The notes beneath the pieces were generated by a model that was not told the DNA's origin, ran no database searches, and saw only the letters and a list, made by a program, of their open reading frames with translations. Shown in pieces: positions 4,944 to 42,490 of a stretch of 64,000 nt of DNA. Made by a program: the position numbers and the translations under genes. The stretch comes from Shinella zoogloeoides (GTDB lineage: Bacteria > Pseudomonadota > Alphaproteobacteria > Rhizobiales > Rhizobiaceae). Where the stretch lies: contig NZ_CP086610.1 in NCBI RefSeq assembly GCF_020883495.1, positions 2,461,501-2,525,500 of the forward strand, written 5' to 3'. Each line of letters begins with the position of its first letter. Position 1 is the first letter of the stretch.

Positions 4944-5918
4944 ATGGACACTGAAGACAATGCGGCAGCAGCGCCATCGATAAGTTTCTCGGTGAACGAT
5001 ATTCCCGGCAAGAACCGTCGCGGCGCTATTCGTGACTATTTATCCGAGATGATGCATGTAGAAGTCGAGCCGGCGGATCTCGACATACCATTTCAATACA
5101 GTGCGGACTTACGCTTCCTGCCCGATGTGAGTTTCGGGCATGCGTTCTCGTCCGCGGTGGTGACGCATCGCACCCGCCAGCTCCTCAAGGACGCGCAGGA
5201 TGACCTGATGCTGGTGATGCCCGAGGCGCGCATGACGATCCTGATGCCCAACCGGGACGATCTTGTGATCGAGCCCGGAGGAGCGGCGCTGGTATCGCAG
5301 GCGCGCGAGATGCGCCTGGTTCATCACGAGACGGCGGCGAGCTGGGCGGTACGCATGCCGCACCGGAACATGGCGCGAATGCTGGTGGGGCTCAGTGCCG
5401 CGCCGGTGCTGGCATTGCCGCAGGGCACGCCGATGCTGGAGGTCCTGCGCCGGTTCCGGCGCGTGCTTGATGGCGATCCTCTCAGGCATGTCGCGGAGCG
5501 GGAGCTGACCTCGCGGCAATTGCAGGAAATCATCGCCGGCACGATCAGGCATTCGGCGGGTTATGTCGGCGAGGCGGAAGAGAATGGCCTGCTCGCCGTG
5601 CGGCTGAGAACGGTCAAGGCCGACATCGACGATAATCTCGGCAACATCCATCTCAACCTGGAATGGATCGCTGCGCGGCAGAAAGTATCGTCCCGTTATG
5701 TGCGCAAGCTGTTCGAACGGGAGGGAACGAGCTTTTCCGATCACCTGCGCAAGACGCGGCTCGCACGCGTCTATTCGATGCTGATCGACCCCCGCAACAG
5801 CGGCCGGACCATCAATTCGATCGCGCACGAATGCGGCTTTCCCGAAGCCTCGTCGATGAACCGCGCCTTCCGGGAAGAATATGGAATGACCCCGAGCGAC
5901 GTACGCGGGCGAAACTAG
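4944..5918 (+). CDS. AraC-family transcriptional regulator
   Basis: This 324-residue protein has an N-terminal ~200-residue sensing region of the AraC_binding_2 type and a C-terminal double helix-turn-helix (WIAARQKVSSRYVRKLFE, then NSIAHECGFPEASSMNRAFR and GMTPSDVRG), the usual AraC/XylS arrangement. The start at 4944 is preferred over an in-frame codon at 4920 because AAGGGGGT lies just upstream. It is transcribed divergently from the giant adhesin, with 255 bp between the two starts that must hold both promoters, so control of the adhesin is a reasonable but untested guess. The ligand cannot be deduced. Confidence 0.85.
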   Translation: MDTEDNAAAAPSISFSVNDIPGKNRRGAIRDYLSEMMHVEVEPADLDIPFQYSADLRFLPDVSFGHAFSSAVVTHRTRQLLKDAQDDLMLVMPEARMTILMPNRDDLVIEPGGAALVSQAREMRLVHHETAASWAVRMPHRNMARMLVGLSAAPVLALPQGTPMLEVLRRFRRVLDGDPLRHVAERELTSRQLQEIIAGTIRHSAGYVGEAEENGLLAVRLRTVKADIDDNLGNIHLNLEWIAARQKVSSRYVRKLFEREGTSFSDHLRKTRLARVYSMLIDPRNSGRTINSIAHECGFPEASSMNRAFREEYGMTPSDVRGRN

Positions 5919-6391
5919 TCCGCGTCTCCCATCTGCTTGAGGCGGTCACGGTATCTGCCGGACGCGCGTCGCAGCGTCGTGGGCGAAAGAAAGGCAGCAT
6001 GCAGTATCAGCAGAATCATACCGAGGCCGCCGAAGAGCGCGGCAGTGAAATAACGCCCCCAGAAGCCGTCAATCACGGCCTTGTCCGGGACTACCGGATC
6101 ATAGAGCACCGGAACCGGGGCCCCGCGGTCATAGGCCGGCGGGTTAGTCGAGACGGGCTCGACGAAACGGTGCATGGCGCCGCCTGCGTCCCTGAACTCC
6201 ACGACGGCGGCGAAGACGGTGCGCGTGGGAAAGCCCGGTCGCCTGTCCTGCACCAGATCGATGACGACGCCATCCGCGTGGGACGCCGAAAGCCCGAAGG
6301 CGATCTGGTCTATGGCCTGGTAGCCGGCAAAGGCGAGCATGGCGAGGCCAAGGATGAGGACGAGACGGCCCATGAGCCGGAATATGGTCAA
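5915..6391 (-). CDS. DUF3592 membrane protein
   Basis: This 158-residue protein has one hydrophobic helix near the N-terminus (MGRLVLILGLAMLAFAGY) and a second near the C-terminus (YFTAALFGGLGMILLILHAA). The ~80-residue soluble segment between them is beta-rich (GVVIDLVQDRR, FPTRTVFAAVVEFRD, PVPVLYDP). This is the layout of DUF3592 proteins, whose function is unknown. It overlaps the AraC gene end by four bases tail to tail. The start is probably TTG at 6391 with AGGAGAGG upstream; an ATG at 6373 is possible. It lies head to head with another DUF3592 gene at 6525. Confidence 0.75.
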   Translation of the reverse strand: MTIFRLMGRLVLILGLAMLAFAGYQAIDQIAFGLSASHADGVVIDLVQDRRPGFPTRTVFAAVVEFRDAGGAMHRFVEPVSTNPPAYDRGAPVPVLYDPVVPDKAVIDGFWGRYFTAALFGGLGMILLILHAAFLSPTTLRRASGRYRDRLKQMGDAD

Positions 6392-22715: not shown

Positions 22716-22861
22716 CGCTCGCGTGCACGCACTTAGCGCGATAGCCCCGATATGGTTGCTTAAAGCGGCACATGCTGCCGATGGAGCGAGTGACGTTCCA
22801 CCGATTTGGGGCTAACTGTGAAATAGAAAAAATTTGTGATGGATGGCGCCGGGGGGCTGAG

Positions 22862-24676
22862 TTGAAGATTTACGCCGTTTCGATTGAGAATTTCAGGGGT
22901 ATCAGTTCAACCAAGCTGGTTCTGCCCGATCACGCTGTCCTTATCGGCGACAACAACACCGGCAAGTCCTCCGTTCTCGAAGCTATAGACCTTGCACTTG
23001 GGCCGGATCGACTGAGCCGCCGGCCTCCTGTCGACGAGCACGATTTCTACGAGGGCAAATATCTGCCCGGGGCTCCCGCTCCGGCCGAAGAGGGCGAAGC
23101 GCCAGCAGAGCCGCCGCCTGCACCGCAAATCACCGTCGAGGTGACGATCATCGGGCTGTCGGAGGAGCAGGAAGCCCGGTTTGGTGGCAATATCGAGTGG
23201 CTCAACGTCGAGACCGGAGACTTCTTCACGGAAGCAAATCCCGCTGGCGTGGATGCGGCGAATATCAAGGCGGCGCTGCGCGTCACGTTCATCGGCGCAT
23301 ACGACGGCGAAGAGGACGATTTCGTCGGCAATACCTATTACGCGCGCAGCCTGACGGATGAGGAGACACCAACGCCCTTCTCCAAGAAGGACAAGCAGCA
23401 TTGCGGCTTCCTCTTCCTGCGCTCGCTGCGAACCGGCTCGCGTGCGCTCAGTCTGGAGCATGGCAGCCTGCTCGACATCATCCTGCGGCTGAAGGAAATC
23501 CGACCGCAAATGTGGGAAGGCACGATCGGCACGCTCGCCGGATTCGATGTCGCGAGCGATCCTGCAATCGGCATTTCGGGCGTGCTGGAGAGCATCGACA
23601 AGTCGCTGAAGAAATATGTGCCGCGGGAATGGGGCGTGAAGCCGCATCTCAAGGTCTCGAACCTCACGCGCGAGCATCTGCGCAAGGTCGTGACCGCCTT
23701 CATAGCCACCGGCGATGGCGCACATGCCGCGCCCTTCTTCCGGCAGGGCACCGGCACGATCAACATGCTGGTGCTGGCGATGCTGTCGCAGATCGCCGAG
23801 GACAAGCAGAACGTCATCTTCGCGATGGAGGAGGTCGAGACCGCAATCCCGCCCTATGCCCAGAAGCGGATCGTTCACGAGCTGCGCAAGCTGGCAGCCC
23901 AGTCGATCGTCACCTCGCACTCGCCCTATGTCCTTGAGGAGTTCAAGCTCGACGAGACCGTGATCCTGTCGCGGGCGAATGATGGCATTCTCAAGCAGGC
24001 GCAGATCGCGCTGCCCGACAGCGTGAAGCACAAGCGCTATCGTCAGGAGTTTCGGACGCGGTTTTGCGAGGGCCTGCTGTCACGGCGCGTTCTAATCGCC
24101 GAGGGCGCGACCGAGGCGAGTTCCTTTCCGGTCGCGGCCCGCCGGCTCTCTGAACTGAACCCCGGCGTCTATGCCTCGCTCGAAGCGCTCGGCATCTGCA
24201 TCATCGATGCGGGCACCGAGTCGCAGATCGCCGATCTCGCTGGTCTCTATAAGGGCCTCGGCAAGCGGACGTTCGCACTGTGCGACAAGCAAACCGACCC
24301 CGCGAAGGCCGCAATCGAAGCCCAGGTCGAGCGCCTGTTCATGCACGAGGAAAAGGGCATCGAGGATCTAATCCTCAAGAATACGACCCAGGCCGCGCTT
24401 GAGCGTTTTTCAGATGCGCTCGATTGGCCCCCACATCTGTTGCAAAAGTTTCCCGATCCGAAGATCAATCTCGTCGCCGCGCTGAAGGAATATTTCGGGT
24501 GGGCGAAGGGCAACTGGGGGATCGCGGATTTCCTTGGTCAATGTTCGGAGGCTGAAATCCCGTCGTGGATTCGCGACGCTTGTGTGAGCCTGAGGGCGCT
24601 CTGCGATCCGCCGCCTGCACCGCCGGCTCCTCCGCAGGAGAATGGCGAGGACACCGCCGTCGAACTGGGCGAATAG
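22862..24676 (+). CDS. gajA: Gabija protein GajA (OLD-family ATPase/nuclease)
   Basis: This ~604-residue protein has an SMC/RecF-like start (LKIYAVSIENFRG), Walker A GDNNTGKSS at about 29-37 and a Walker-B-type FAMEEVETAIPP near 320. A TOPRIM nuclease domain follows, with LIAEGATEASSFP near 410 and DKQTDP near 474. GajA is a sequence-specific DNA nickase kept inactive by nucleotides and released when phage replication depletes them. The start is taken as TTG at 22862 behind GGGGGG; the frame is open to an ATG at 22772. It is followed nine bases later by the gajB helicase, the defining Gabija pair. Confidence 0.87.
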   Translation: MKIYAVSIENFRGISSTKLVLPDHAVLIGDNNTGKSSVLEAIDLALGPDRLSRRPPVDEHDFYEGKYLPGAPAPAEEGEAPAEPPPAPQITVEVTIIGLSEEQEARFGGNIEWLNVETGDFFTEANPAGVDAANIKAALRVTFIGAYDGEEDDFVGNTYYARSLTDEETPTPFSKKDKQHCGFLFLRSLRTGSRALSLEHGSLLDIILRLKEIRPQMWEGTIGTLAGFDVASDPAIGISGVLESIDKSLKKYVPREWGVKPHLKVSNLTREHLRKVVTAFIATGDGAHAAPFFRQGTGTINMLVLAMLSQIAEDKQNVIFAMEEVETAIPPYAQKRIVHELRKLAAQSIVTSHSPYVLEEFKLDETVILSRANDGILKQAQIALPDSVKHKRYRQEFRTRFCEGLLSRRVLIAEGATEASSFPVAARRLSELNPGVYASLEALGICIIDAGTESQIADLAGLYKGLGKRTFALCDKQTDPAKAAIEAQVERLFMHEEKGIEDLILKNTTQAALERFSDALDWPPHLLQKFPDPKINLVAALKEYFGWAKGNWGIADFLGQCSEAEIPSWIRDACVSLRALCDPPPAPPAPPQENGEDTAVELGE

Positions 24677-24684
24677 AGGGACGG

Positions 24685-26508
24685 ATGGTCGATCTGACTC
24701 TCGCGCAGAAGAATGTTCTGAAAGAAGACGGTCACCAGCTCGTCGTGGGCGGCCCCGGTTCCGGCAAGACCACTGTGTCCATCCTGAAGGCGGCGAAGAT
24801 TGCCCGCGAGAAACTCAGGCCGGGCCAGCGCATCCTGTTCCTGAGCTTTGCGCGCGCAACGGTTTCGCGCGTCTTCGAGGCGATCGACGAAGAGCAGTCC
24901 GTCACAAAGGAGGAGAAGAAGCGGATCGAGGTCGACACGTATCACTCCTTCTTCTGGCGCATTCTCAAGGCGCACGGCTATCTGGTCGGTTTTCCACGCC
25001 GGATGACAATTCTGACGCCGCCCAACGAGGCGATCGCGCTGTCAGCGATCCGCAGCGGCTTCAAGGCGCCGTCTAAGCTCACGGACGAGGAGAAGGCGCA
25101 GAAGGCCGCGCTGGAGATTGCCGAGAGAATGCGGTTGGCGACCGAGGAAGGCAAAATCTGCTTCGACCTGTTCGCGGAGCGCGTGGCTCTCCTGTTGCAC
25201 GGCTCCGCCAAGGTCCGCGATCTCGTATCGACCATGTACCCTTTCATCATCCTCGACGAGTTTCAGGATACCAGCGCCCAGCAGTGGCGCGCGGTCGAGG
25301 CCATCGGGAAGAGCAGCACGCTGATCGCTCTGGCCGATCCCGAGCAGCGCATCTTCGATTTCATCGGCGCGGACCCGGAGCGTCTCGACCACTTCAGAGA
25401 GGCTTTCAAGCCTTCCGAGCACGATTTGGCCGGAGACAACCATCGCAGCAAGGGGACGGACATTGCCTTGTTCGGCAACCACCTTCTAACCGGCAAATTT
25501 CGGGAAGAAGCATATCAGGGCATCGACTACGAGGGGTTTGCCTCGAATCCTAATCAGGCTTTCGCCTCGCTTGTCGCTCAGGTTCTGAAAGCGCGTAAGC
25601 GGCTAATCGCGACGGGCCGCCGGGACTGGTCGCTTGCGATTCTGGTGCCGACGAAGCGTATGACCCGGCTGGTCTCCGATAATCTGCGCGAGCCCTTCGG
25701 CAACGTGCCTCCGATCGCGCACACGGCGGCCGTCGACATGGAAGGCCCGATCCTGGCCGCGGAGGTGATCGCCTTCCTTCTCCAGCAGCGAAGTCACGCC
25801 GGCTGCTTTGACGAATTCGTCGATGTGCTTTGCAGCTATTTCAGCGGCCGAGGAGGCCAGGCGCCGACGAAGGGCGATCTGACGGAAGCGGCGCGTTTCC
25901 GCTCGGCGCTGGGCAAGTGGAATGACTGCCTCGTGAAGGGAAAGGCCGTTCCGGCAAACAGCGTCTTGCAAGCCACGTTCGCGGTCCACGAAGCTGCAAT
26001 GGCTGTTGCGCTGACTGGACAACCCGACGGCGACTGGACCGCGGTTCGAGCGGTGCTTGAGGCTGGTGCTTGCACTCGGCTCGCCGAGGTTGCGAAGGAG
26101 GCGCGCAACGTCCGGATTCTCGAACGCGGAACGCAGCTCCGGCAAGGCCTGTCGCAGGACTGGCGTGATACCGGCGGATACAAGAACGCGCTGGCTGTCA
26201 CTCGCCAAGCGTTCGTGCAGGAGCATTTCGCGACCGCTCACAAGCCGGAGTCGGGTGTCGTCGTGATGAACATGCACAAGGCCAAGGGCAAGCAATTCGA
26301 TGAAGTTATCATCTTCGAAGGGTGGCCGAAGCGCTACAGGGGCGAGATCGTCGGTAACCCGGATCGCATTGTGGGCGGCAATGTCCGCGCGGGAGCGATG
26401 ACGCAAGCTCGCCAGAATTTCCGCGTGAGTGTGACGCGTGCGAAAACCCGCACGACGATCATGTCTCCCAACGATGATGTTTGTGTGCTCCTGCTCCCTG
26501 CAGAGTGA
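24685..26508 (+). CDS. gajB: Gabija protein GajB (UvrD-like helicase)
   Basis: This 607-residue SF1 helicase has Walker A VGGPGSGKTT (about 21-30), LFLSFARATVSRV (motif Ia region), ILDEFQDTSAQQW (motif II, about 187), LADPEQRIFDFIGA (motif III), a motif V region MNMHKAKGKQFDEVI and motif VI VSVTRAKTRT. GajB senses DNA ends or single strands from GajA nicking and, in the known system, destroys nucleotides or DNA. The start at 24685 has GAGGGACGG upstream; a longer frame begins inside gajA. The motifs look intact, so the system may be functional. Confidence 0.88.
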   Translation: MVDLTLAQKNVLKEDGHQLVVGGPGSGKTTVSILKAAKIAREKLRPGQRILFLSFARATVSRVFEAIDEEQSVTKEEKKRIEVDTYHSFFWRILKAHGYLVGFPRRMTILTPPNEAIALSAIRSGFKAPSKLTDEEKAQKAALEIAERMRLATEEGKICFDLFAERVALLLHGSAKVRDLVSTMYPFIILDEFQDTSAQQWRAVEAIGKSSTLIALADPEQRIFDFIGADPERLDHFREAFKPSEHDLAGDNHRSKGTDIALFGNHLLTGKFREEAYQGIDYEGFASNPNQAFASLVAQVLKARKRLIATGRRDWSLAILVPTKRMTRLVSDNLREPFGNVPPIAHTAAVDMEGPILAAEVIAFLLQQRSHAGCFDEFVDVLCSYFSGRGGQAPTKGDLTEAARFRSALGKWNDCLVKGKAVPANSVLQATFAVHEAAMAVALTGQPDGDWTAVRAVLEAGACTRLAEVAKEARNVRILERGTQLRQGLSQDWRDTGGYKNALAVTRQAFVQEHFATAHKPESGVVVMNMHKAKGKQFDEVIIFEGWPKRYRGEIVGNPDRIVGGNVRAGAMTQARQNFRVSVTRAKTRTTIMSPNDDVCVLLLPAE

Positions 26509-30709: not shown

Positions 30710-31231
30710 ATGAATGTCATGAGGGATGATTTGCAAGAAATACTTTCAGTATTCGCGGCTGCGGTGCGTGCACTTCTGCAGGATAAGGATCTTGCCTATG
30801 CGGATCCTGCCGAGCGCGCGCTTGTCGCTCGGATTCGGGATCTCCTGCATGGGGAATATGCCGGCTGGTCAATCGATTTGGAATGGAATCGCCGCGAGGA
30901 CGTGATCAAGCGCCTTCGCTATGACCTGAGCGATGACGAGTTGATTGGGAAGGATGCGATTGTCCCTGACCTCATCGTACATCGGGTCGGCAAGCGTGAA
31001 AATTTGCTCGTCGTCGAGGTCAAGAAGTCGACCAACAAGGACTTCGATGGGGACATCTGGAAGCTCAAGGGAATGACGGAACAGGCCGGGGCTTACGGGT
31101 ATCTGGTTGGGCTTCATCTGGTGATCGACGTGAAGGCGGGGATCGCGCCGCGTTGCGACGTCTATGTCGACGCTGCGTTGGACGACGAGTTGACAGAGTG
31201 GATGCGCGCTGAGCTGGGGAAGGCAAGATGA
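30710..31231 (+). CDS. PD-(D/E)XK nuclease-like protein
   Basis: This 173-residue protein has the restriction-endonuclease-like core: an acidic helix (AERALVARIRDLLHGEYAGW), then VPDLIVHRVGKRENLLVVEVKK, where D and E-V-K fit the PD-(D/E)XK catalytic pattern. It continues with QAGAYGYLVGLHLVIDVK. No DNA-recognition domain is visible. The stop overlaps the next start (ATGA). The two genes and the AbiH gene 57 bases further form a likely operon. Confidence 0.65.
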   Translation: MNVMRDDLQEILSVFAAAVRALLQDKDLAYADPAERALVARIRDLLHGEYAGWSIDLEWNRREDVIKRLRYDLSDDELIGKDAIVPDLIVHRVGKRENLLVVEVKKSTNKDFDGDIWKLKGMTEQAGAYGYLVGLHLVIDVKAGIAPRCDVYVDAALDDELTEWMRAELGKAR

Positions 31232-31917
31232 CTGGGGATCCCGTCGAGATCGTCAAACTGCTCGGTCGCTTTACCGGGCCGGATTTGACGCAGACACTGT
31301 CGCGCATCGAAGGCGCGGTACGAGGTGTGTCGGCCAGCGATTGCACGGGCTTCCTCGAAAATGCCGGGGCTGGCCGTGAGGTGCTTGCGGCCGCGGCCGG
31401 CATGAAGCGGCTGGCCGGACAGATCAATGTCACGATCCATGCGCTCGGCATCCTCATGTGCCTGCCGCATATTCTCGAACCGGACGAGCGCGTCGAATCT
31501 GTGTCTCTCGGTGCGGGAAATACGGGCCGCGATTTCGATCTGGAGACGAATGTTCGGGTTGCCGAGTTCAAATTCATCCAGTGGAGAGGCGGACCAGAGA
31601 CGATTCGCCAGAATGCAGTTTTCAAGGACTACCTGCTGCTTGCGGAGCATCCGACGGCAAAGCGTAAGCACCTCTATTTGCTCGGAACGGAGCATGCGAT
31701 CAGGTTCTTGCGTGGTGGTCGCGCGATGTCGAGCGTCCTGAGCAGAAACGCCAAGCTGCAGAGGATGTTTACGGAACGGTTCGGGAAGCGCTTCGGGACA
31801 GTCGGTGACTATTACGCGGCGCACGCCAACGCGGTTCAGATCGATGATGTTTCGCCCTGGCTTTCGGAATTGGCGGAGGAGTTGATCGCGGAGGCGGATA
31901 TGGAGATTAGCGATTGA
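31228..31917 (+). CDS. Nuclease-like protein coupled to the PD-(D/E)XK gene
   Basis: This 229-residue protein contains GRDFDLETNVRVAEFKFIQW, where D, E and K are spaced like a second PD-(D/E)XK active site, followed by a long helical region (VFKDYLLLAEHPTAKRKHLY, LLGTEHAIRFLRGG). I cannot name its family. Four-base overlap with the upstream gene suggests that the two products are made in fixed ratio and may act together, perhaps as a heteromeric nuclease. Confidence 0.55.
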   Translation: MTGDPVEIVKLLGRFTGPDLTQTLSRIEGAVRGVSASDCTGFLENAGAGREVLAAAAGMKRLAGQINVTIHALGILMCLPHILEPDERVESVSLGAGNTGRDFDLETNVRVAEFKFIQWRGGPETIRQNAVFKDYLLLAEHPTAKRKHLYLLGTEHAIRFLRGGRAMSSVLSRNAKLQRMFTERFGKRFGTVGDYYAAHANAVQIDDVSPWLSELAEELIAEADMEISD

Positions 31918-31973
31918 AGAGCAGCGCAAATGAGCGAATGCGTTGGCGAACGGGAAAACACTGAAGGGCTGGG

Positions 31974-32822
31974 ATGGGGAAAACGCTTTACATCATCGGA
32001 AACGGCTTCGATCTCCACCACGGAATTCCGTCATCCTATAAGGCGTTCGGAGAGTATCTCCGGCGGTCGGATGCCAAGACCTATGATGTCGTCGAGAAAT
32101 ACTTTTCGATGGATGCGCAGTTTTGGGCCGAATTCGAGGATCGGTTGGCCTCTTTCGACAGCGATTCACTGATTGAGGACGCGGCCAACTTTCTGGTCGG
32201 ATATGGCGCCGACGATTGGAGCGACGCATACCACCACGATTACCAGTACGAGATACAACAAGCGGTCGAGGCGATCTCGACGACGTTGCGGTTGCGCTTC
32301 GCCGAATGGATACGCCAGCTCCCTGTGCCATGGGCTGCTGAGTTCAGCGGGCAGCGCGTTCGGGTGGATCGCTCGGGGACCTTCTTGAACTTCAATTACA
32401 CCCCGTCGCTACAACGATTGTACGCGGTTCCCGACATCAACGTGTTGCATATCCATGGAGCGGCCGCGAACCCAACGGAGACGTTGGTGCTGGGCCATGG
32501 ATGGGAGCCTGTTCCAAACCTGGATCCCTACCGTTTCCACCAGGATCCGGAGGATGCGGATATGCGTGTCGTCGAAGGGCAGGGGATTGTCGACGACTAC
32601 TTCAAGGACACGTTCAAACCCACCGCCAAAGTCATCGAGAAAAACGCAGCCTTCTTTGCCGGGCTGTCGGATGTCGATCGGATCGTCGTGATGGGACATT
32701 CGGTGTCGGAGGTCGATCACCCGTATTTTGAGGAGGTCATCGCGAATATCGACGTCAACCGGGTGCGCTGGAAGGTTACGCGACGAGCGCCAAGCGATCA
32801 TGTCCGCATCACACACAGCTAG
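31974..32822 (+). CDS. abiH: AbiH family abortive infection protein
   Basis: This 282-residue protein starts with the family hallmark LYIIGNGFDLHHGIPSSY. It also has FLNFNYTPSLQRLY, VLHIHGAAANPTETLVLGHG and, near the end, IVVMGHSVSEVDHPYFEEV, the usual AbiH signature blocks. AbiH proteins confer abortive phage resistance by an unknown mechanism. The gene follows the two nuclease-like genes on the same strand and may belong to their operon. The length is typical of the shorter AbiH members. Confidence 0.85.
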   Translation: MGKTLYIIGNGFDLHHGIPSSYKAFGEYLRRSDAKTYDVVEKYFSMDAQFWAEFEDRLASFDSDSLIEDAANFLVGYGADDWSDAYHHDYQYEIQQAVEAISTTLRLRFAEWIRQLPVPWAAEFSGQRVRVDRSGTFLNFNYTPSLQRLYAVPDINVLHIHGAAANPTETLVLGHGWEPVPNLDPYRFHQDPEDADMRVVEGQGIVDDYFKDTFKPTAKVIEKNAAFFAGLSDVDRIVVMGHSVSEVDHPYFEEVIANIDVNRVRWKVTRRAPSDHVRITHS

Positions 32823-32846: not shown

Positions 32847-32890
32847 TTGTCAGGTTTATATTATCATATATTGACTTTGTCAGATTTTAT
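32847..32890 (+). promoter_or_regulatory. Promoter region of the QueC-like operon with direct repeats
   Basis: TTGTCAG(G/A)TTTAT-like direct repeats begin at 32847 and 32877, 30 bases apart, with an AT-rich core (TATATTATCATATATTGAC) between them. This is the only AT-rich segment before the operon. It is a candidate operator for the operon's own Xre-ImmA protein. Confidence 0.5.
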
Positions 32891-32918
32891 GCGCATATTG
32901 CCGACATGGGAGGCTGTC

Positions 32919-33494
32919 ATGACCGATGGGCCATTCAGAAATGCAGAACTGAGCAGCCGCTGGAAACGGTACGGGCAAGACCTGGTCAGCGACGCGGTCA
33001 GCGCGGAAGAGCGGACGATGCAGGCTTGTCACAGCATGATTGGTGACGTCGACATGAACGCATTCAGCCCGCTTTTCGGCGACCTCAAGGCGCATGCGGA
33101 ACGCACGCAAATGGATCTAGACCCGGTGTCGGAGGTCGAAACGATTTTCGAGAGTCACCCAACCTCGCCTCTGGCGGATGCGCTTCAGCGGCATTTGATC
33201 GCGAACCTGCGTGACCAGATGCCTATCGACGAGGCTCTCAACCGATCGCTCGAAAGCACGGCGAAAGACTGGATCGGCACCACCAAGAACAGGCTCGACG
33301 AAGAGTGCATTCGCGCCCGCGAGCTCGGCGACATGAAGCGAGAGGATTATCACAAGGGCATAGAACGGAACCGCGAGACGTTTGCGGCCATCAAGCCCAA
33401 CGAGCTCTGCGATGCCCTGGCCACCGGTAGCAAGAGCGCTTTCCGGCTGGCAGTTCAAAAGAAAGCCGGCGTGGACGAGGGGCCGGAAGAGTGA
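32919..33494 (+). CDS. Alpha-helical protein, first gene of QueC-like operon
   Basis: This 191-residue protein (MTDGPFRNAELSSRWKRYGQ at the start) appears almost entirely helical and charged, without a recognisable catalytic motif. The start at 32919 has GGGAGG upstream; a longer frame opens at 32847 within the promoter region. Its stop overlaps the next start in a GTGA, so it is coupled to the QueC-like gene. A role as substrate or scaffold for that enzyme is possible; function unknown. Confidence 0.6.
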   Translation: MTDGPFRNAELSSRWKRYGQDLVSDAVSAEERTMQACHSMIGDVDMNAFSPLFGDLKAHAERTQMDLDPVSEVETIFESHPTSPLADALQRHLIANLRDQMPIDEALNRSLESTAKDWIGTTKNRLDEECIRARELGDMKREDYHKGIERNRETFAAIKPNELCDALATGSKSAFRLAVQKKAGVDEGPEE

Positions 33495-34876
33495 GCGCCC
33501 GTACGCATGAGGCACCCGTATCGGGCAAGCACCTGTTCGTTATCGAAAAGGGGCAGAAGCCCGGCCGCGCTCTCCCGAAGGGCGCCGTAACGGCGGAAGT
33601 CGGCCGGCACATTCGCTTCAATGCTGCGGTTCTGGATACGTTCGACGTGAAGGGGTTCCAGCCGCTGCATTACGACATGTTGGTCTTGTGCGCCGCCATT
33701 GAGTTTGCTGACCGACGTTGGAAGCGCCCGCTTGGGTGGCGCCGGACCCTGGAAGTGACTGTTCCGGTCATCGACCTCAAAAGTTGGCAGAAGCCGGAGG
33801 TTTTGAAGAGCCTGCATGGCGTCTTGAACCACCTGACCGGCGACACGTGGCGGTTTTCCTTCGTTGGAGCGAAAGACCGCTCGCCCATCGGTTCGCGGCA
33901 AATTCCGCTGGACTTCGGCAAGACCAAGACCTTTGCCGTCGCTTACAGCGACGGCTTGGATTCGCGTGCGGTCTCTGCGTTGAGTGGCGACCAGGACGAG
34001 GCCCTATGCATTCGGATCGCCGGCAAGCGCCAACGCCGGAAAACCGGAGACAGTTTTTTCACGCAGATCCCGTTCAAGGTGCAGGGATATCGCGGACACG
34101 AAAGCAGCTTCCGTTCGCGCGGATTCCAGTTCGCGGCGGTAACGACAATTGCCGCGCAGCTTTCTAGCGTGGCGCGTATCATAGTGCCCGAGAGCGGCCA
34201 GGGTGCGCTTGGACCCGTATTGCTGCCTCTGCACAACATCTATCCCGACTATCGCAACCATCCGACGTTCTTCCGAAAGATGGAGCGGTTCATCACGGCA
34301 CTGCTAGGCTATCGGGGCAAGTTTGAGCAGCCACGTTTGTGGTCGACGAAAGGGCAGACGCTACGAGCATTCCTGGACATTCCCGGAAAGACCGAACGGC
34401 ACCTGACAAGCACTCATTCCTGCTGGCAGAGCCGCCGCGTGGTGAATGTTGGGGGGCGAAAGCATTGTGGCTTGTGTGCTGCCTGTTTGCTCAGGCGCGT
34501 TAGTTTGCATGCAGCTGGTGTTAACGAGGCGCGAGACGCTTATGTCGTGTCCGATCTGGCCGCCACTGACGCGAGCGGCGCACTATCCGTCATACCCCTG
34601 AAGGCCGATCGGGACATCATGGTCGAATATGGGAGCGTGGGCGCACGGCACCTGCAGCACCTTGCCGAGCTCGCCAGCTTGCCTGATGACGCCCTTCGCG
34701 TCCACGCCTCGCAGATCGGGGCGGTAATCGGGGAAAGCACTGAGAAAGCGCTGACGAAGCTAAGGACAATGTTGGGTACGCATGCCGTGGAATGGCGGGC
34801 ATTTCTGTCCGCGCAAGGAGAACAAAGCTTTTTGAAGAGCTGGATGGATGGAGGGCGCTATGGCCGATTTGAATGA
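33491..34876 (+). CDS. QueC-like PP-loop ATPase with zinc motif, defence-type
   Basis: This 461-residue protein has a ~145-residue N-terminal region without clear homology, a PP-loop (AVAYSDGLDSRAV, about 149-161) and a QueC-type zinc site: C311, then HCGLCAAC at 325-332. QueC makes 7-cyano-7-deazaguanine, but the housekeeping enzyme is ~230 residues; long QueC-like proteins occur in the Qat system and type IV CBASS. The P-loop has SDGLDS where QueC has SGGxDS. The GTG start overlaps the upstream stop, and the last 17 bases overlap the next gene. No other deazaguanine pathway gene is near, which argues for a changed role. Confidence 0.7.
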   Translation: MSARTHEAPVSGKHLFVIEKGQKPGRALPKGAVTAEVGRHIRFNAAVLDTFDVKGFQPLHYDMLVLCAAIEFADRRWKRPLGWRRTLEVTVPVIDLKSWQKPEVLKSLHGVLNHLTGDTWRFSFVGAKDRSPIGSRQIPLDFGKTKTFAVAYSDGLDSRAVSALSGDQDEALCIRIAGKRQRRKTGDSFFTQIPFKVQGYRGHESSFRSRGFQFAAVTTIAAQLSSVARIIVPESGQGALGPVLLPLHNIYPDYRNHPTFFRKMERFITALLGYRGKFEQPRLWSTKGQTLRAFLDIPGKTERHLTSTHSCWQSRRVVNVGGRKHCGLCAACLLRRVSLHAAGVNEARDAYVVSDLAATDASGALSVIPLKADRDIMVEYGSVGARHLQHLAELASLPDDALRVHASQIGAVIGESTEKALTKLRTMLGTHAVEWRAFLSAQGEQSFLKSWMDGGRYGRFE

Positions 34877-36050
34877 GCTGAGCGCGCAAGAAATAGGACG
34901 CCGACTGCGCATCGCGCGGGAGAACGCGGATATCCGGCAGGATGACGCGGCCCAGGTCATAGGCATGTCTCGCCCGACGTTGGTATCCATCGAGAAGGGT
35001 GTGCGCCGTGTGCGCATCCAGGAAATCCAGATGCTGGCTCGTCACTACGGCGTGTCTGTGAACGCCCTCCTTCGCAGAGAAGCCGTCCACACCGATTTGA
35101 TGCCCCGCTTCCGGAAACTGCGTGAGACGGAGGACGCACACACCACCGAGGCCATTCTGCTCTTCAACGATCTGATCAAGGCGGACGTTGAAATGGAGAA
35201 CATCCTAGGGATCCAGCGGCGGAGAAATTACCCGCCGGCGCGCGGCATCAATGACGGTGATGTTGTTGCGTTGGCTGAAACGCATGCCAAGGAACTGCGC
35301 CACTGGCTGGGTCTCGGCCCAGGGCCGATTGCCGATATCTTTTCGGTTATCGAGCTGGGCCTCGGCATCCGCTTGTATCAGCGCCGCCTTTCTTCGAACT
35401 CGAAGGTGGCGGGGCTGTTCACTTACGATGAAAGCATCGGCGCCTGCATTCTTCTCAACGCCAACCATCCATTGCCACGTCGCATCCAATCCGCGGCTCA
35501 TGAAATCGGCCATTTCTATGGCACTCGGCAAACCCCGGAAGTGCTCGAGGATGATGAGAGATTCTTGTCGCGCGATGAACGCTACGCAAACGCCTTTGGC
35601 CGCGCGTTCCTGACGCCTGCTGAAAGCTTCTCGGAAAGCTTTCGCCAACTGAAGGAGATAACCGGCAAGACGACCCGACGCCTGATCATCCTCCTTGCCC
35701 AACAGTATAACATCTCGCGCCAAGCTTGCGGTCTCAGGCTCGAAGAATTGGGTCTCGTCAAGCGCGGCACTTGGGCCTGGTTCGAGAACAACGGCGGCAT
35801 CACCGACGACCATGTTCGGGAGGTCCTGGGCGAAATGACGGATCGCCGCGATCCGTCAAAGAGTGACGCCGATCGACCGATCTCGCACCGCCTGAGCCTC
35901 ATGGCGCACGCCGCCTGGAAACGCGGACTGATGTCGGAAGGACAATTGGCAGAATTGCTGAAGGTGGGGCGAGTGGAGCTTCGCGGCATTGTTGATCAAA
36001 TCGAGCTTGAGGAAAGAGAGACGGATGAGTTGCTCAAGCTCCCTGATTAA
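34860..36050 (+). CDS. Xre-family HTH protein with ImmA/IrrE metallopeptidase domain
   Basis: This 396-residue protein has an N-terminal Xre HTH (about 10-70: EIGRRLRIARENADIRQDDA, MSRPTLVSIEKG) and a COG2856 peptidase domain with zinc motif HEIGH at 214-218 and the downstream acidic ligand region SRDERYANAFGRAFLTP. ImmA-type peptidases cleave repressors or antitoxins when triggered. The start at 34860 has GGAGGG upstream. It probably represses the operon and may release it by proteolysis under phage or DNA stress. Confidence 0.8.
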   Translation: MADLNELSAQEIGRRLRIARENADIRQDDAAQVIGMSRPTLVSIEKGVRRVRIQEIQMLARHYGVSVNALLRREAVHTDLMPRFRKLRETEDAHTTEAILLFNDLIKADVEMENILGIQRRRNYPPARGINDGDVVALAETHAKELRHWLGLGPGPIADIFSVIELGLGIRLYQRRLSSNSKVAGLFTYDESIGACILLNANHPLPRRIQSAAHEIGHFYGTRQTPEVLEDDERFLSRDERYANAFGRAFLTPAESFSESFRQLKEITGKTTRRLIILLAQQYNISRQACGLRLEELGLVKRGTWAWFENNGGITDDHVREVLGEMTDRRDPSKSDADRPISHRLSLMAHAAWKRGLMSEGQLAELLKVGRVELRGIVDQIELEERETDELLKLPD

Positions 36051-36690
36051 TATCGCGGACCCGCTGGTTCTCGACACCAGTGTTCTGATCAACCTCCACG
36101 CCTGCAAATACGGCGAACGGATGCTCGCAGCCATTCCCAACGATATTCTCGTCCCCGAGATTGTGGCTGGAGAACTGGAACACGAGACGAGCCGCAGGAA
36201 CGGGGAGCACGGTTTCCTGTACAGTCTCGTCGCGAATGGAACCGTGACGCTCGCCCGCCTGACCGAGGTGGAGTACGAGATTTTCTACGAACTCACGTCG
36301 ATCGCGCCTTCGCTGGACGATGGCGAAGCGGCAACGATCGCTGTTGCCTCGACCAGAAACTTCGTACCCGTCATCGACGAAAAAAGAGGACGAGCTCGCG
36401 CTCTCGCCAAAGCGCGAGCGGCGGGCTGGTCACTGGATATCTTCCGTCATCCATCCGCGCTTTCCACGCTCGGCGATCAATCCGCCATCGACGCGCTCTA
36501 TCTCGCCCTTCGCGACGGCCGCATGCGAATACCCCCGGAAAGCGCGGATAGCGTGATTGGGATTATTGGTATCGAGCGTTCACGCGATTGCACCTGCCTC
36601 CCCGGCTACCGGGACCGATTTGCAGGGATGCGTAATCGATCCATCGACGTGGAAGCTATCGCCGCCGCAGATCTGGAGGCCGGAGAATGA
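36025..36690 (+). CDS. PIN-like nuclease, last gene of QueC-like operon
   Basis: This 221-residue protein contains LVLDTSVLINLHACKYG, LVPEIVAGELEHE, SLDDGEAATIAVAST and FVPVIDEKRGRARA, whose acidic residues fit the PIN-domain metal site (D, E, D, D order). PIN proteins cut RNA. It overlaps the ImmA-type gene by 26 bases. Pairs of Xre-COG2856 and PIN genes have been predicted as toxin-antitoxin modules. The C-terminal ~60 residues (RSRDCTCLPGYRDRFAGM) are not part of a standard PIN fold. Confidence 0.65.
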   Translation: MSCSSSLINIADPLVLDTSVLINLHACKYGERMLAAIPNDILVPEIVAGELEHETSRRNGEHGFLYSLVANGTVTLARLTEVEYEIFYELTSIAPSLDDGEAATIAVASTRNFVPVIDEKRGRARALAKARAAGWSLDIFRHPSALSTLGDQSAIDALYLALRDGRMRIPPESADSVIGIIGIERSRDCTCLPGYRDRFAGMRNRSIDVEAIAAADLEAGE

Positions 36691-37094: not shown

Positions 37095-37109
37095 TTGGAA
37101 ACCGGGTTC

Positions 37110-37859
37110 ATGTTACAGCGTACCAAGCAGCCTTTCGTTCTTTTCCAGCGCCCAGGCACGAAAAACTGGTCCATGAGATACAGTTTGGACGGCAAGCAGA
37201 TCAAAAAATCCCTACAAACGCCTGATGAAGCAGAAGCCTTGCGCCTAGCCAATCAGATTTGGCACGAACAGACTTATCGTTTGAAGCAGGGCCTCACCAT
37301 TGACGAGCAGCCTTTCTCGAAGGTGGCGGAAGAATTCATGAAGAAGGTCGAGTTCGAGGCATCCGCCGACGAACGCAGCAAGTATCACCCGATCTATTGG
37401 CCTCCGATCATCCGCCGTTTCCCAATGGCTTATTTCGGCGATAAGCCCATCGACACGATCACGTCGGCCGACCTCGAACGCTATCTGCTATGGCGCAAGA
37501 CCTATTGGACATCTGGCCACGGAACGAAGATCGAGAAAATTCGCTGCGAGCGTAATGGTCGAATCTATAGTCGTGCTGCACCTCGAAAGGTGGCCGCGCT
37601 CAGCACCCTGAATGGCGAGATGGTCATCATTCGCGGTATATTCGAGCAAGCGGCTCGTTGGGGGTATTGTCAGCCACTCGTCATGCCGTCCACGAAAACC
37701 CGCAAACGAGTGGATAACCGTCGCCCGAGCTTCACAGGTACGGAATACAACACATTGCTCCGCGTTTGCGAAAAGCGCATCTATGAGAGCTTTACGGGCG
37801 AAAGACAGGTTCAGGAGAGGTGGCTCGGTTTGTCTGAACAGCTTCGGGCGTTTCGCTAA
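37110..37859 (+). pseudogene. Tyrosine integrase, truncated by IS insertion
   Basis: The 249 remaining residues are an integrase N-terminus: a beta-hairpin arm-binding region (FVLFQRPGTKNWSMRYSLDG) and the helical core-binding domain (FSKVAEEFMKKVEFE, LNGEMVIIRGIFEQAARWGY). The frame stops at 37859 where IS3 sequence begins; the catalytic R...H-x-R...Y domain is absent from the window. An ATG at 37110 is preferred to a TTG at 37095. The upstream decamer repeats and the tRNA fragment at 44226 suggest that this was the island's integrase. Confidence 0.75.
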
Positions 37860-37876
37860 GTGGATTTCCGCCTCGA

Positions 37877-38372
37877 TTATGCCGCCACCATCATTGGTGT
37901 CAGCGCGTTGAAGTAGGCCTGATCCGGCGTCCGCCGGTCAAGGGATGAATGTGGGCGTCTGGTGTTGTAGAAGTTCAGATATCGGCCGATGCCAGCGCGT
38001 GCCTCGGACACAGTCTTGTAGGCATGGAGGTAGACTTCCTCGTATTTGATCGAACGCCAGAGCCGCTCGACGAAGACATTGTCTCGCCACGCACCCTTGC
38101 CATCCATCGAGATGGCGATCTGTGACCTCTTCAGCACGGCGGTGAAGTCGATGGAGGTGAACTGCGATCCCTGGTCGGTATTGAAGATTTCCGGCCTGCC
38201 ATGACGGGCAAGTGCCTCCTCCACCGCCTCGATGCAGAAGGCTGCTTCCATCGTGATCGACAACCGCCATGACAAGACCTTCCGGCTGAACCAGTCCACG
38301 ACGGCGCACAGATAGACAAATCCCCGCGCCATGGGGATGTAGGTCAGGTCCATTGCCCAGACCTGATTGGGG
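37877..38372 (-). pseudogene. IS3-family OrfB transposase, C-terminal half
   Basis: In-frame sequence VWAMDLTYIPMARGFVYLCA, FNTDQGSQFTSIDF, WRDNVFVERLWRSIKYEEVY and YLNFYNTRRPHSSL gives the rve integrase core with its DDE residues. The gene is cut by the IS256 element; its N-terminal half continues at 39791. Removing 38373-39790 and one 8-bp duplication restores LAVTRPNQVWAMDLTYIP in frame. Confidence 0.88.
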
Positions 38373-39790
38373 ATAGCGTCCGTCAAGTTGGTGTAATTTC
38401 GGGTGTAGGACCGGGCCGTCATGATCAGGCGGCTCTGGGTGTAATCTGAAGTGTAGTTTCCTCTTCGATTGTTGGTGGGTTTAGCTCGGCCATTGCCTCG
38501 ACCTGCATGTATCGGCTCAGGAGCTGCCATTCGTCGTTGGCTTCGAGCAGAACCGCGCCGATGAGGCGAACGATGCTGTCCTCGTTGGGGAAGATGCCGA
38601 CGACATCGGCACGGCGCTTGACCTCCTTGTTGAGGCGTTCGAGTGGATTCGTTGAATGTAATTTCGTGCGGTGCTGGGCGGGGAAGGCCATGTAGGCCAG
38701 CACGTCGGCTTCGGCATTGTCCATGAAGGTACCGAGCTTGGGCCATCTGGCGCGGAGCTGGTCGGCGACATGCCGCCAGGTCTGCACGGCATTGTCATGG
38801 TCGGGCTGGATGAAAGCCTGACGGATCGCGGCGGCGACCATGGTGTGCTGGCCCTTGGGAACGTAGGCCAGCGCATTGCGTGTCGCATGAACACGGCAGC
38901 GCTGCCATGTCGCGCTGAGGATACGGGTAATGGCCGCTTTCAGCCCTTCATGGGCATCGGAGATGACCAGCTTGACGCCGGTGAGGCCTCGGCGGACCAG
39001 ATCACGCAGGAAGCTCGTCCAGAACGGCTCGGCTTCGGAGGGGCCGATGTGCAGGCCGACAATCTCCCTCTTCCCGTCCGTGTTGACCGCCACCGCGATT
39101 ATCGCCGCCACCGACACGATGCGACCGCCCTCACGCACCTTCAGATAGGTGGCGTCGAGCCAGAGGTATGGCCAGTCACCGGAAAGGGGGCGCTTGAGGA
39201 AGGCGTTCACCCGCTCGTCGATATCCTTGCACAGCTTGGAGACGGAGGATTTGGAGATGCCGGTCATGCCCATGGCCTGCACCAGCTCATCGACCTTGCG
39301 CGTCGAGACGCCGTTGATCCACGCCTCCTGGATCACGGCCACCAGCGCCTTCTCCACCATCTTCCTCGGCTCCAGAAAGCCGGGAAAGTAGGCTCCCTGT
39401 CGCATCTTCGGTATCTTCAGGTTCAGCGTGCCGAGCCGGGTGTCGAGCGAGCGGTCGCGGTAGCCGTTGCGCCATGTCTGGCGGCTGTCGCCACGTTCAT
39501 AGCGCCCAGCGCCGATCAGGCCATCAACATCGGCTTCCATGATCAGTTGCAGCACGCTTTCGGCAATCGTGCGCAGAAAATCGCTATCGCCACTCTTCGC
39601 GGCAAGCTCGGAAAGAGCTAATCTGTCGTCGGTCATCGGGGTTCCTTTCGGCTGGTTGAAGCTTTGCAACTCCACCTTCTCCGACAGGCCCGGTGCCCAC
39701 CTTGCGCTCAACGAATTCGGCAGCTCATTCTCCACCGCCGTTTCCACCTCAATGCGCCTCCGAAATTACACCACGTGCGCGGACGCTACC
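38373..39790 (-). mobile_element. IS256-family element inserted in IS3 orfB
   Basis: A 1,418-bp element with imperfect inverted ends (GATAGCGTCCG left, GGTAGCGTCCG on the complement of the right end; both followed within 20 bases by TGGTGTAATTTCG). It is flanked by the 8-bp target duplication TGATTGGG (38365-38372, 39791-39798). It holds one transposase gene. Confidence 0.9.
38425..39636 (-). CDS. IS256-family transposase
   Basis: This 403-residue protein contains IMEADVDGLIGAGRYERGDS, NGYRDRSLDTRLGTLNLKIP, the first catalytic Asp in YLWLDATYLKVR, VISDAHEGLKAAI, QRCRVHATRNALAYVPK and the last acidic region TNPLERLNKEVKRR, all standard for the Mutator/IS256 class. The start at 39636 has GAAAGGA upstream. 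It looks intact. Confidence 0.92.
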   Translation of the reverse strand: MTDDRLALSELAAKSGDSDFLRTIAESVLQLIMEADVDGLIGAGRYERGDSRQTWRNGYRDRSLDTRLGTLNLKIPKMRQGAYFPGFLEPRKMVEKALVAVIQEAWINGVSTRKVDELVQAMGMTGISKSSVSKLCKDIDERVNAFLKRPLSGDWPYLWLDATYLKVREGGRIVSVAAIIAVAVNTDGKREIVGLHIGPSEAEPFWTSFLRDLVRRGLTGVKLVISDAHEGLKAAITRILSATWQRCRVHATRNALAYVPKGQHTMVAAAIRQAFIQPDHDNAVQTWRHVADQLRARWPKLGTFMDNAEADVLAYMAFPAQHRTKLHSTNPLERLNKEVKRRADVVGIFPNEDSIVRLIGAVLLEANDEWQLLSRYMQVEAMAELNPPTIEEETTLQITPRAA

Positions 39791-40049
39791 TGATTGGGCC
39801 GGGTGACTGCCAGCTTTCGTAGGAGGTAGGGATAAATTTTGTGCCCTGGCGCTGGTTTCGAGGTGTTCGGGCGGCGGTAGATCGCCTCGATGCCCATCTT
39901 CTTCATCAGCGTGGCGACGTGTCGCCGCCCGGTCTCCAGACCTTCTCCTCTCAAGAGCCCTTGCAACATCCGACTTCCGGCAAAGGGGTAGTCGAGATGC
40001 AATTCGTCAATCCGGCGCATAAGGGCCAGATCGCCGTCAGACACCGGAT
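39791..40049 (-). pseudogene. IS3-family OrfB transposase, N-terminal half
   Basis: The sequence PVSDGDLALMRRIDELHLDY, RMLQGLLRGEGLETGRRHVA and MGIEAIYRRPNTSKP is the HTH_21-type N-terminus of IS3 OrfB. It is cut on one side by IS256 and on the other, at 40050, by the end of the IS21 element, which removed the true start and the orfA gene. Confidence 0.85.
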
Positions 40050-40161
40050 TGTTGATTGCCACTGAGAACTGACCCGGCGTGGCCTGATATTTCCATTGAG
40101 AATTGACCCATGTTCCAACCTTCCCTCGCATGTTTTCAGCGGGGGCTATGGAGTGATCGAC

Positions 40162-41688
40162 ATGGCGTTATTGAGCGTGATCCGACGCTGGCATTTTCGA
40201 GAAGAACTATCGATCCGGGAGATTTGCCGCAGGACTGGCCTGTCCCGGAATACCATCCGCAAATACCTGCGCCTGGACGGCGTGGAGCCGAAGTTCAAAG
40301 TCCCGGAGCGGCCAAGCAAGCTTGATCCTTTTGCTGATCGGTTGTCTGCCTGGCTGAAGAGCGAATCCAAGAAGAACCGCAAGCAGAAGCGGACGATGAA
40401 GCAGTTGCATGCCGATCTGATGAGCCTTGGCTACGAGGGCTCCTACAATCGGGTTGCGGCATTTGCTCGGGAATGGCGTGATGATCGGCAGAGAGAATTG
40501 CAGACGACGGGCCGCGGGACATATGTGCCCCTGGCGTTTGACCCCGGCGAAGCCTTCCAGTTCGATTGGTCGGAAGATTGGGCCATCATCGGCAATGAGC
40601 GCACCAAACTGCAGGTGGCGCACACGAAGCTGAGCTACAGCCGCGCCTTCATCGTTCGGGCCTATCTCCTGCAGACGCATGAGATGCTGTTCGATGCCCA
40701 TAATCATGCATTCCGGGTCTTCGGCGGCATCCCCGGCCGCGGAATCTACGACAACATGCGCACGGCGATCGACAAGGTCGGCCGCGGGAAAGAGCGCGAC
40801 GTCAATGTCCGTTTCCTGGCGATGGCCAGTCACTACGTATTCGAGCCGGAGTTCTGCAATCCCGCGTCTGGTTGGGAGAAAGGGCAGGTCGAGAAGAATG
40901 TTCAGGATGCGCGTCATCGCTTCTTCCAACCTGTTCCGCGCTTTCCATCATTGGATGCCCTGAACGACTGGCTGGAGCTTCGGTGCAAGGAATTCTGGGC
41001 AAAGACCCCACACGGACAGATGCGCGGCACCATTGCCGACATCTGGGCTGAGGAAGCTTTGGCATTGATGCCTGTTACCCGTCCGTTCGACGGCTTCGTG
41101 GAGTATACGAAGCGGGTCACGCCAACCTGCCTCGTCCATCTGGAGCGCAATCGCTACAGCGTGCCGGCATCCTTCGCCAATCGACCGGTGAGCCTGCGGG
41201 TCTATCCGGATCGTGTCGTGGTTGCTGCGGAAGGCCAGATCGTCTGCGAGCATCGTCGCGTCATCGATCGCTCTCACGACCGACCGGGACAGACGATCTA
41301 CGACTGGCGGCACTATCTGGCGGTCGTGCAACGCAAGCCAGGCGCGCTTCGCAACGGTGCACCCTTTGCCGAGCTACCGGACGCGTTCCGGACCTTGCAG
41401 CAATACCTCCTGAAGAAGCCGGGTGGCGACCGCGAGATGGTCGATATCCTGGCCCTTGTTCTCCAGCACGACGAACAGGCCGTGCTATCGGCGGTCGACA
41501 TGGCGCTGAAGTCCGGCGTCCCCACGAAGACCCACGTGCTGAACCTGCTGCATCGCCTCGTCGACGGCAAATCCTTCACACCGCCCACCATCGATGCACC
41601 TCAGGCCCTGACGCTCGTCAACGAGCCCAAGGCCAATGTCGAACGATACGATGCGCTGAGAAAGACGGAGGCCCGCCATGCGTCATAA
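40162..41688 (+). CDS. istA: IS21 transposase IstA
   Basis: This 508-residue protein starts [20 protein letters not shown] with an HTH ([20 protein letters not shown]) and has the rve core: [27 protein letters not shown] and [14 protein letters not shown]. It continues with a Mu-type C-terminal region ([19 protein letters not shown]). The start at 40162 is favoured by GGAG upstream and by homologues beginning at the same point. It overlaps istB by 11 bases. Confidence 0.92.
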
Positions 41689-42490
41689 TCCAGCAAGCGG
41701 CGCTGTCGTCATCATGCTGCGGCAACTGAAGATGCACGGCATGGCCCAGGCCGTCGGCGAACTCACCGAGCAGGGATCGCCGGCATTCGAGGCGGCAATC
41801 CCGATCCTGTCGCAGCTCCTCAAGGCGGAGACCGCGGAACGTGAAGTTCGATCGACGGCCTACCAGCTCAAGACGGCACGCTTTCCAGCCTATCGTGACC
41901 TGAACGGCTTCGACTTCACCAGCAGTGAGATCAACGAGGCGCTGGCCCGTCAGCTTCATCGCTGCGACTTCCTGGACGACGCCAACAACATTGTCCTGGT
42001 CGGCGGTCCCGGCACGGGCAAGACGCATATCGCCACGGCCATCGGTGTCCAGGCCATCGAACATCATCACAAGCGGGTTCGGTTCTTCTCGACCGTGGAA
42101 CTGGTCAACGCGCTCGAGCAGGAGAAGTCCCAAGGTCGCTCAGGCCAGATCGCCAACCGCCTGGCACACTCCGATCTCGTCATCCTCGACGAGCTCGGTT
42201 ATCTGCCGTTCAGTGCTTCAGGCGGTGCGATGCTGTTCCATCTGCTGAGCAAGCTCTATGAGCACACGAGCGTCATCATCACCACCAACCTGAGCTTCAG
42301 CGAATGGGCCAGTGTCTTCGGCGATGCCAAGATGACAACCGCGCTGCTCGACCGGCTCACCCATCATTGCCACATCCTCGAGACCGGCAACGACAGCTTC
42401 CGCTTCAAGAACAGCTCCGCGCACGACACCAAAACGACAAAGGAGAAAACGAGGAACTTGACCACGACCGCAGAGCCGAAACATACCTAA
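41678..42490 (+). CDS. istB: IS21 helper ATPase IstB
   Basis: This 270-residue DnaC-like AAA+ ATPase has Walker [15 protein letters not shown], Walker [17 protein letters not shown] and sensor region [20 protein letters not shown]. IstB directs IstA to the target DNA. The start overlaps istA, as usual. The gene looks intact. Confidence 0.93.

Follow-up and report, generated by a model that had tools for sequence, protein, structure and literature searches.

A conserved four-gene operon with a QatC-like enzyme, an Xre-ImmA protein and a PIN-like protein: a candidate variant of QueC-type defence

Proteins with the QueC fold act in two described kinds of bacterial defence, namely Qat and type IV CBASS (cyclic-oligonucleotide-based antiphage signalling systems). 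According to PMC13279940, changing Gly2 in QatB (N-terminus MGTS) or in the CBASS CD-NTase (MGGS) ends defence; in the CD-NTase, this residue is the site of NDG (PMC13279940, PMC11996544). Defence by Qat requires the extensions of the enzyme QatC, part of which bind QatB, and QatBC alone is reported to protect against some phages (PMC13279940). This article examines a four-gene operon in a stretch of 64,000 nucleotides from Shinella zoogloeoides (the window). The operon encodes a small helical protein (g1), a QueC-like enzyme, an Xre-type helix-turn-helix (HTH) protein fused to an ImmA/IrrE-type metallopeptidase (Xre-ImmA, gene 3), and a PIN-like protein (gene 4). The four genes are a real, conserved unit that occurs in soil and water bacteria; the features tested suggest a variant of the QueC-type kind of defence that would be a member of neither Qat nor CBASS.

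The initial annotation had described four genes on one strand, with overlaps of 4, 17 and 26 bases and a set of catalytic motifs. Inspection of the reading frames confirmed this to the base (Table 1); for the Xre-ImmA gene, an alternative ATG start at 34848 is possible. Pfam recognises the second protein as QueC (29.8 bits, cut-off 22) and gene 3 as Peptidase_M78 plus HTH_3/HTH_31, while the PIN match of gene 4 (19.8 bits, E 0.0013) lies under the cut-off of 23.6. With PADLOC 2023, the newest catalogue compared, only the QueC-like part is recognised, as QatC, while genes 3 and 4 match generic relatives. The protein g1 is without match in Pfam, NCBIfam, PADLOC 2023 (E≤1) or PHROGs (E≤0.1). A literature search, made without subscription papers and most preprints, found no description of the arrangement.

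In tblastn searches of 34 genome loci, 33 show the gene order g1, QueC-like, Xre-ImmA, PIN; in the remaining one (L030), the contig stops within gene 3. The genera include Rhizobium, Bradyrhizobium, Paraburkholderia, Sphingomonas and Hydrocarboniphaga, which with others we take to represent Alpha-, Beta- and Gammaproteobacteria; one locus is labelled Latescibacterota. Among 397 genomes of the host's order, a QueC-like match (E≤1e-8) was found in 20 genomes at 22 places, ten with 38–100% identity and twelve with 28–33%. Xre-ImmA (E≤1e-40) was found in ten of the same genomes, in all cases adjoining one of the QueC-like genes with 38–100% identity. The plasmids give a similar picture: of 72,556 records, 105 have a match to the QueC-like protein and 25 to Xre-ImmA (E≤1e-30). 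These 25 (14 conjugative, 6 mobilizable, 5 non-mobilizable) are precisely the records with a QueC-like match over 80% or more of the query length. When 359 genomes across the phylum were sampled, Xre-ImmA occurred in four, each time beside a QueC-like gene; three of these (G000, G143, G171) are shared with the order sample, while L079, the only additional one, has both the QueC-like and the PIN gene. Recurrence of the same four genes, on which the initial annotation had made the idea of a system depend, is thus seen in many genera and on plasmids.

Several properties indicate that this arrangement is more than chance. In addition to the conserved order, the four proteins diverge in step, with correlated pairwise distances over 41 loci (Spearman 0.89–0.96), and the residues expected to be catalytic in genes 3 and 4 do not vary in the aligned copies: H214, E215, H218 and E240 of gene 3 are each found in 50/50 aligned sequences, D17 and E50 of the PIN protein in 49/49, and its D99 and E101 in 48/48. 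Queries with the upstream AbiH, the two open reading frames (ORFs) preceding it and the downstream integrase-like ORF gave no match at E≤1e-4 in the 34 loci, so the unit consists of the four genes and the promoter/operator upstream of them.

Fused Xre-COG2856 proteins beside PIN genes form a predicted class of toxin–antitoxin loci (Makarova 2009, PMC2701414), which share with the operon an HTH-HExxH protease that adjoins and overlaps a PIN gene. It is therefore conceivable that two independent modules, a QatBC-like pair and an ordinary toxin–antitoxin pair, merely travel together, and the higher conservation of gene 3 (median identity 72%, compared with 34–51% for the other genes) would fit this. 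The operon differs from such loci in that, in the samples searched, the pair always comes with g1 and the QueC-like gene. No free-standing close Xre was found; a QueC-like neighbour is present in 10/10 order genomes, 25/25 plasmids and 4/4 phylum genomes. Together with the single shared promoter/operator, the gene overlaps and the correlated distances, this makes two separate modules improbable.

The QueC-like protein falls short of the cut-offs for both canonical QueC (TIGR00364; 21.9 bits, cut-off 150.3) and NCBIfam QatC (116.5 bits, E 1.3e-33; curated cut-off 280 bits), and matches the PADLOC profile for QatC with E 1.3e-30. Its predicted fold is the full-length QatC fold, N- and C-terminal extensions included, and its family forms an own branch beside QatC (96/96). 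An alignment of 53 sequences shows invariant residues in the pyrophosphate-binding loop (S153, G155, D157, S158), among the zinc cysteines (C311, C326, C329, C332), and in a stretch further discussed below (D253, Y254, R255, N256, P258). In view of this position in the tree and the shared fold, the unit is best regarded as a relative of Qat. The earlier proposal of an undescribed defence system is thus partly supported: it holds as far as the arrangement is concerned, and has to be modified in that the unit is not wholly separate.

Further likenesses to Qat are a helical partner gene directly upstream, the PP-loop plus four cysteines, and a conserved partner N-terminus that is followed by a conserved tryptophan (W15 in g1, W18 in QatB; PMC13279940). 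The differences concern the enzyme (YxDYRN in place of TRTTHP, and S[DEN]GxDS in place of SGGxDS), the start of the partner (M[ST]DGP in g1, MGTS in QatB), and the addition of Xre-ImmA and PIN. Two QatB queries matched none of 50 family loci (E≤1e-3), as against 5 and 6 of 14 QatC-type loci. The absence of QatA and QatD that had been noted for the window holds for the operon generally: neither has a match inside or next to it (50 loci, 12 of them <6 kb). QatA does occur in 4/50 loci and QatD in 2/50, exclusively in Bradyrhizobium, incomplete, 4–8 kb downstream and on the opposite strand (L006, L008, L025 and L035, at about 17–21 kb, two of them also with QatD). Type IV CBASS also has a QueC-fold enzyme beside a partner with a conserved N-terminus, and N-terminal conjugation may be common to both. 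However, Cap9 comprises only ~185 residues, without the extensions (PMC13329287), and the CD-NTase starts with MGGS (PMC13279940) rather than M[ST]DGP. In the window copy, Pfam, NCBIfam and PADLOC (E≤1) detect no CD-NTase in the operon or in the three ORFs that precede it, in agreement with the initial annotation, and scans of the four genes with the same collections found no Cap10 (transglycosylase-like) domain.

The partner g1 is predicted to be all-helical (predicted local distance difference test score 87.7). A search with the single sequence gave 230 homologues and one with a profile 919, and the best 120 of each were examined. Among the matches listed, 92 of 121 rows that were not selected for the motif start with MTDG and 15 with MSDG, the remainder being mostly longer or shorter start calls. 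The motif stands at the annotated start in 56 of 62 further proteins, and a non-redundant set of 122 proteins, chosen for having the motif, shows M1, D3, G4 and P5 throughout and W15 in 119. Over whole proteins, identity is as low as 12%, with a median of 34% (41 loci). The codons for the motif residues D, G and P vary freely (2, 4 and 4 of those possible are used), so the constraint on the N-terminus acts on the protein. Homology between the subfamilies starting with M[ST]DGPF and MSDGPH is clear from hhalign (probability 98.1, E 8.6e-14). Together with the role of Gly2 in QatB and the CBASS CD-NTase, this near-invariance is the strongest support for g1 as the probable substrate of the QueC-like enzyme, a role that the initial annotation had put forward as possible, pointing to the start MTDGPF.

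The C-terminus of g1 also carries a recurrent motif: [DN][DEQ]G lies near the end in 61/62 and 113/120 proteins, among the matches listed. The conserved D[DE]G[PV] (33459–33494 in the window, and in relatives) overlaps the ribosome-binding region of the QueC-like gene, and 18 of 27 codon stretches with a similar C-terminal motif contain a purine tetramer that resembles a Shine–Dalgarno sequence (35 distinct loci examined). As the ribosome-binding site of the overlapping gene must lie there, a functional C-terminal tail is not relied on; the N-terminal D-G-P is free of such doubt.

Instead of g1, the enzyme might modify a nucleic acid, with g1 serving only as an adaptor or delivery subunit. Canonical QueC serves the modification of tRNA and DNA (PMC13329287), and TGT is present in 9/10 operon hosts. 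Nevertheless, this appears very unlikely: the enzyme has the full QatC fold with those extensions on which defence depends in QatC and some of which contact QatB (PMC13279940), the Pfam, NCBIfam and PADLOC scans found no transglycosylase gene in the unit, and the conserved extreme N-terminus of g1 would be hard to account for.

If g1 is the substrate, the question arises which small molecule is attached. In Cap9 and QueC, a Tyr/Asp pair recognises 7-carboxy-7-deazaguanine (CDG), according to PMC13279940. The chemistry could thus be that of type IV CBASS, with host-made CDG conjugated to g1 to give an NDG-type end. Profile alignment places the family's YxD[YF]R on the YPDCR of canonical QueC, and YxD[YF]RN[HFY]P is found in 49/51 family rows (one gene counted twice; the exceptions are SVDYRNHP in L050 and PDLRTHP in L041), while 11/12 QatC-like rows have TRT[TA]HP, the twelfth being a partial ORF. 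A conserved YPDY was also considered and proved wrong for the proline, as YPD occurs in just 41/121 rows among the matches listed. An alignment to QatC that is anchored on the common HP moves Y251 and D253 by two positions, which renders their equivalence to the CDG-binding pair ambiguous.

The hosts themselves also speak against a general supply of CDG. The window's host genome (100% complete) has TGT, but neither a QueC that reaches the cut-off nor a match to PTPS-family QueD or to QueE. QueE was searched with one query. The same three matches are lacking in 4/10 operon hosts (the window host, G039, G247 and G228), where host-made CDG therefore seems unavailable; in another (G101), QueC is present, PTPS is matched weakly and QueE has no match. 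Nor are operon hosts enriched for the pathway: QueC over the cut-off is found in 6/10, compared with 172/387 other genomes of the order (Fisher p 0.35), and PTPS/QueD in 6/10, compared with 223/387 (p 1.0). A need for host-made CDG everywhere is therefore unlikely, although the active site looks nearer to that of QueC than QatC's does, and conjugation of host-made CDG to g1 is doubtful as a general account. A more specific suggestion, that the QueC-fold ligase caps the Thr/Ser-Asp-Gly-Pro N-terminus with a donor other than host CDG in hosts unable to make 7-deazaguanines, would amount to a new protein modification but is, taken as a whole, unlikely. In one variant, the donor would arise only on infection, for example as CDG from phages whose DNA contains 7-deazaguanines, and the modification would act as an alarm.

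A point that goes beyond the initial annotation concerns control of the operon. Upstream of g1, the inverted repeat TTGAC-N3-GTCAG, which is almost perfect, covers the −35 box of what we take, from the sigma70 consensus, to be the promoter. Within 110 nt upstream of g1, TGACNNNGTCA is found in 41 of 45 loci, a count that includes the window copy and close relatives, and lies 34–38 nt before the ATG; the other four loci have near variants, and in shuffled sets the mean number of loci containing it is 0.045. The host genome (4.85 Mb) has a single TTGACNNTGTCAG, at this operon; its uniqueness alone is weak evidence, as a reversed control pattern is also single. Xre-ImmA probably represses its own operon by predicted binding to this conserved operator. 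CapH and CapP take part in protease–repressor switching, and the PADLOC profiles for both match gene 3. In PprI/DdrO, single-stranded DNA activates the protease (PMC10904395). Both pairs resemble the operon in combining an HTH repressor with an ImmA/IrrE-type metallopeptidase, and differ in that the operon has the two functions fused in one protein. The PprI/DdrO precedent and the CapH and CapP matches suggest that repression may be relieved by proteolysis.

Taken together, the following mechanism can be envisaged. At the expense of ATP, the QueC-like enzyme would activate a small carboxylate and then attach it to g1 at the free N-terminus (Thr or Ser after removal of Met, then Asp-Gly-Pro), and modified g1 would work with the complex or signal for it. 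Xre-ImmA would keep the operon off by occupying the operator over the −35 box, until a stress or infection signal (possibly single-stranded DNA, by analogy with PprI/IrrE) turns on its protease; removal of the repressor would then raise expression. The PIN protein, a putative nuclease judging from its acidic residues, would be the nuclease arm and cause growth arrest or RNA cleavage. Gene content, linkage, the predicted enzyme fold, invariant catalytic residues, the near-invariant g1 N-terminus and the conserved operator are seen in the sequences; the modification of g1, autorepression and its relief, the activity of PIN and protection against phages are inferred. That a stress-sensing ImmA-type protein releases the PIN RNase, as the initial annotation put it, is conjecture. 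On balance, we hold with somewhat more confidence than doubt that this is one defence-type operon, in which a QatB/QatC-like conjugation core stands under an Xre-ImmA switch and is accompanied by a PIN nuclease.

A number of observations weigh against this reading. Protection against phages is deduced here from the genes themselves, and the 7-deazaguanine genes searched for are lacking in the four hosts named above. The second residue is Gly in QatB and CdnD and Thr or Ser in g1; profile comparison detected no relation between g1 and QatB (hhalign probability 0.9% and 0.2%), and a clear structural relative of g1 did not emerge. A distant copy in Roseomonas (L041) has a divergent partner at 5405–5953 with the start VRDGIWKGLPLPREW (VRDGIW from GTG), an operator changed to CGACATTGTCGG, and the deviating enzyme stretch PDLRTHP. 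Four copies are broken (L024, L031, L035, L036), and in L029 gene 3 is split in two. The phage records searched, and the viral contigs in a search that finds close relatives only, gave no relative; one PHROG of phage QueC-like proteins is a distant match (E 2.2e-8). Finally, a PADLOC survey of 150 flanking ORFs at 17 other loci, whose largest families include mad3 (5), AriA (4), GajB (3) and AbiEii (3), covers the best 25 of 223 families in a single set without control.

The copy in the window is set among defence genes and mobile elements (IS66 and IS21 genes; Table 1). The latter bear on another possibility, namely that the unit has no antiphage function and serves plasmids and islands as a stability or addiction module: there are 25 plasmid records, and transposase genes surround the window copy. 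We know of no addiction pair that resembles a two-protein QatBC-like core, though, and the window copy also sits among defence genes. As QatBC alone defends against some phages (PMC13279940), a pure addiction role seems quite unlikely.

Table 1. Features of the operon and its surroundings in the window (window coordinates; empty cells, strand not given).
Feature	Position	Strand	Remarks
Gabija pair	22772–24676, 24565–26508		complete-looking; GajA E 1.3e-267, GajB E 1.9e-238; ~6 kb upstream of operon
PD-Lambda-3_A-like ORF, unassigned ORF overlapping it by 4 bases, AbiH	30710–32822		directly upstream of operon
Upstream GTCA half-site	32849–32852	+	found by eye; also in relatives with g1 starting M[TS]DGPF
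Inverted-repeat operator TTGACTTTGTCAG (TGAC-N3-GTCA)	32871–32883	+	conserved; overlaps −35 box
Probable sigma70-type promoter	32871–32899	+	−35 TTGACT 32871–32876, 17-bp spacer, −10-like CATATT 32894–32899
g1	32919–33494	+	191 aa, starts MTDGPF; all-helical partner, probable substrate of QueC-like enzyme
g1 N-terminal motif M-[ST]-D-G-P-[FH]-[RK]-[NS]	32919–32942	+	MTDGPFRN in window; conserved
QueC/QatC-like PP-loop enzyme	33491–34876	+	461 aa, GTG start; QatC-type N- and C-terminal extensions
SDGLDS pyrophosphate-binding loop	33947–33964	+	residues 153–158 of QueC-like enzyme
YPDYRNHP	34241–34264	+	residues 251–258 of QueC-like enzyme; YxDYR like canonical QueC YPDCR; QatC has TRTTHP
Zinc cysteines C311, C326, C329, C332	34421–34486	+	C311...HCGLCAAC of QueC-like enzyme
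Xre-type HTH fused to ImmA/IrrE (M78) metallopeptidase	34860–36050	+	396 aa; probable autorepressor
HEIGH zinc motif of Xre-ImmA	35499–35513	+	H214, E215, H218
E240 of Xre-ImmA	35577–35579	+	likely third ligand
PIN-like nuclease (predicted)	36025–36690	+	221 aa; Pfam PIN below cut-off; invariant acidic residues
Integrase-like ORF, then transposase-like ORFs, IS21 pair	37095–42490		integrase-like and transposase-like ORFs by reading; IS21 pair at 40096–42490; integrase-like ORF has only DUF6538 in Pfam, below cut-off

If the proposed reading is true, QueC-type N-terminal conjugation would occur here in a defence architecture that joins Qat and type IV CBASS as the third, and that has a partner protein and an on-switch of its own. 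The unit would also offer a lever on what QatC-type enzymes attach, as the QueC-like YxD pair is kept, yet several hosts seem to be without CDG synthesis; the conserved operator makes the switch open to a simple reporter test.

Another branch of QueC-like proteins was observed in four loci (L051, L054, L061, L062). Its upstream partner, of 262–264 aa, starts with MGHQ or MGHI.LG, and no QatD match lies in the stretch covered. The LP....W spacing of these partners resembles that of the MSDGPH partners, while a comparison of the two profiles found no relation. This branch may represent a further QueC-type system in which the N-terminus of the partner is conserved.

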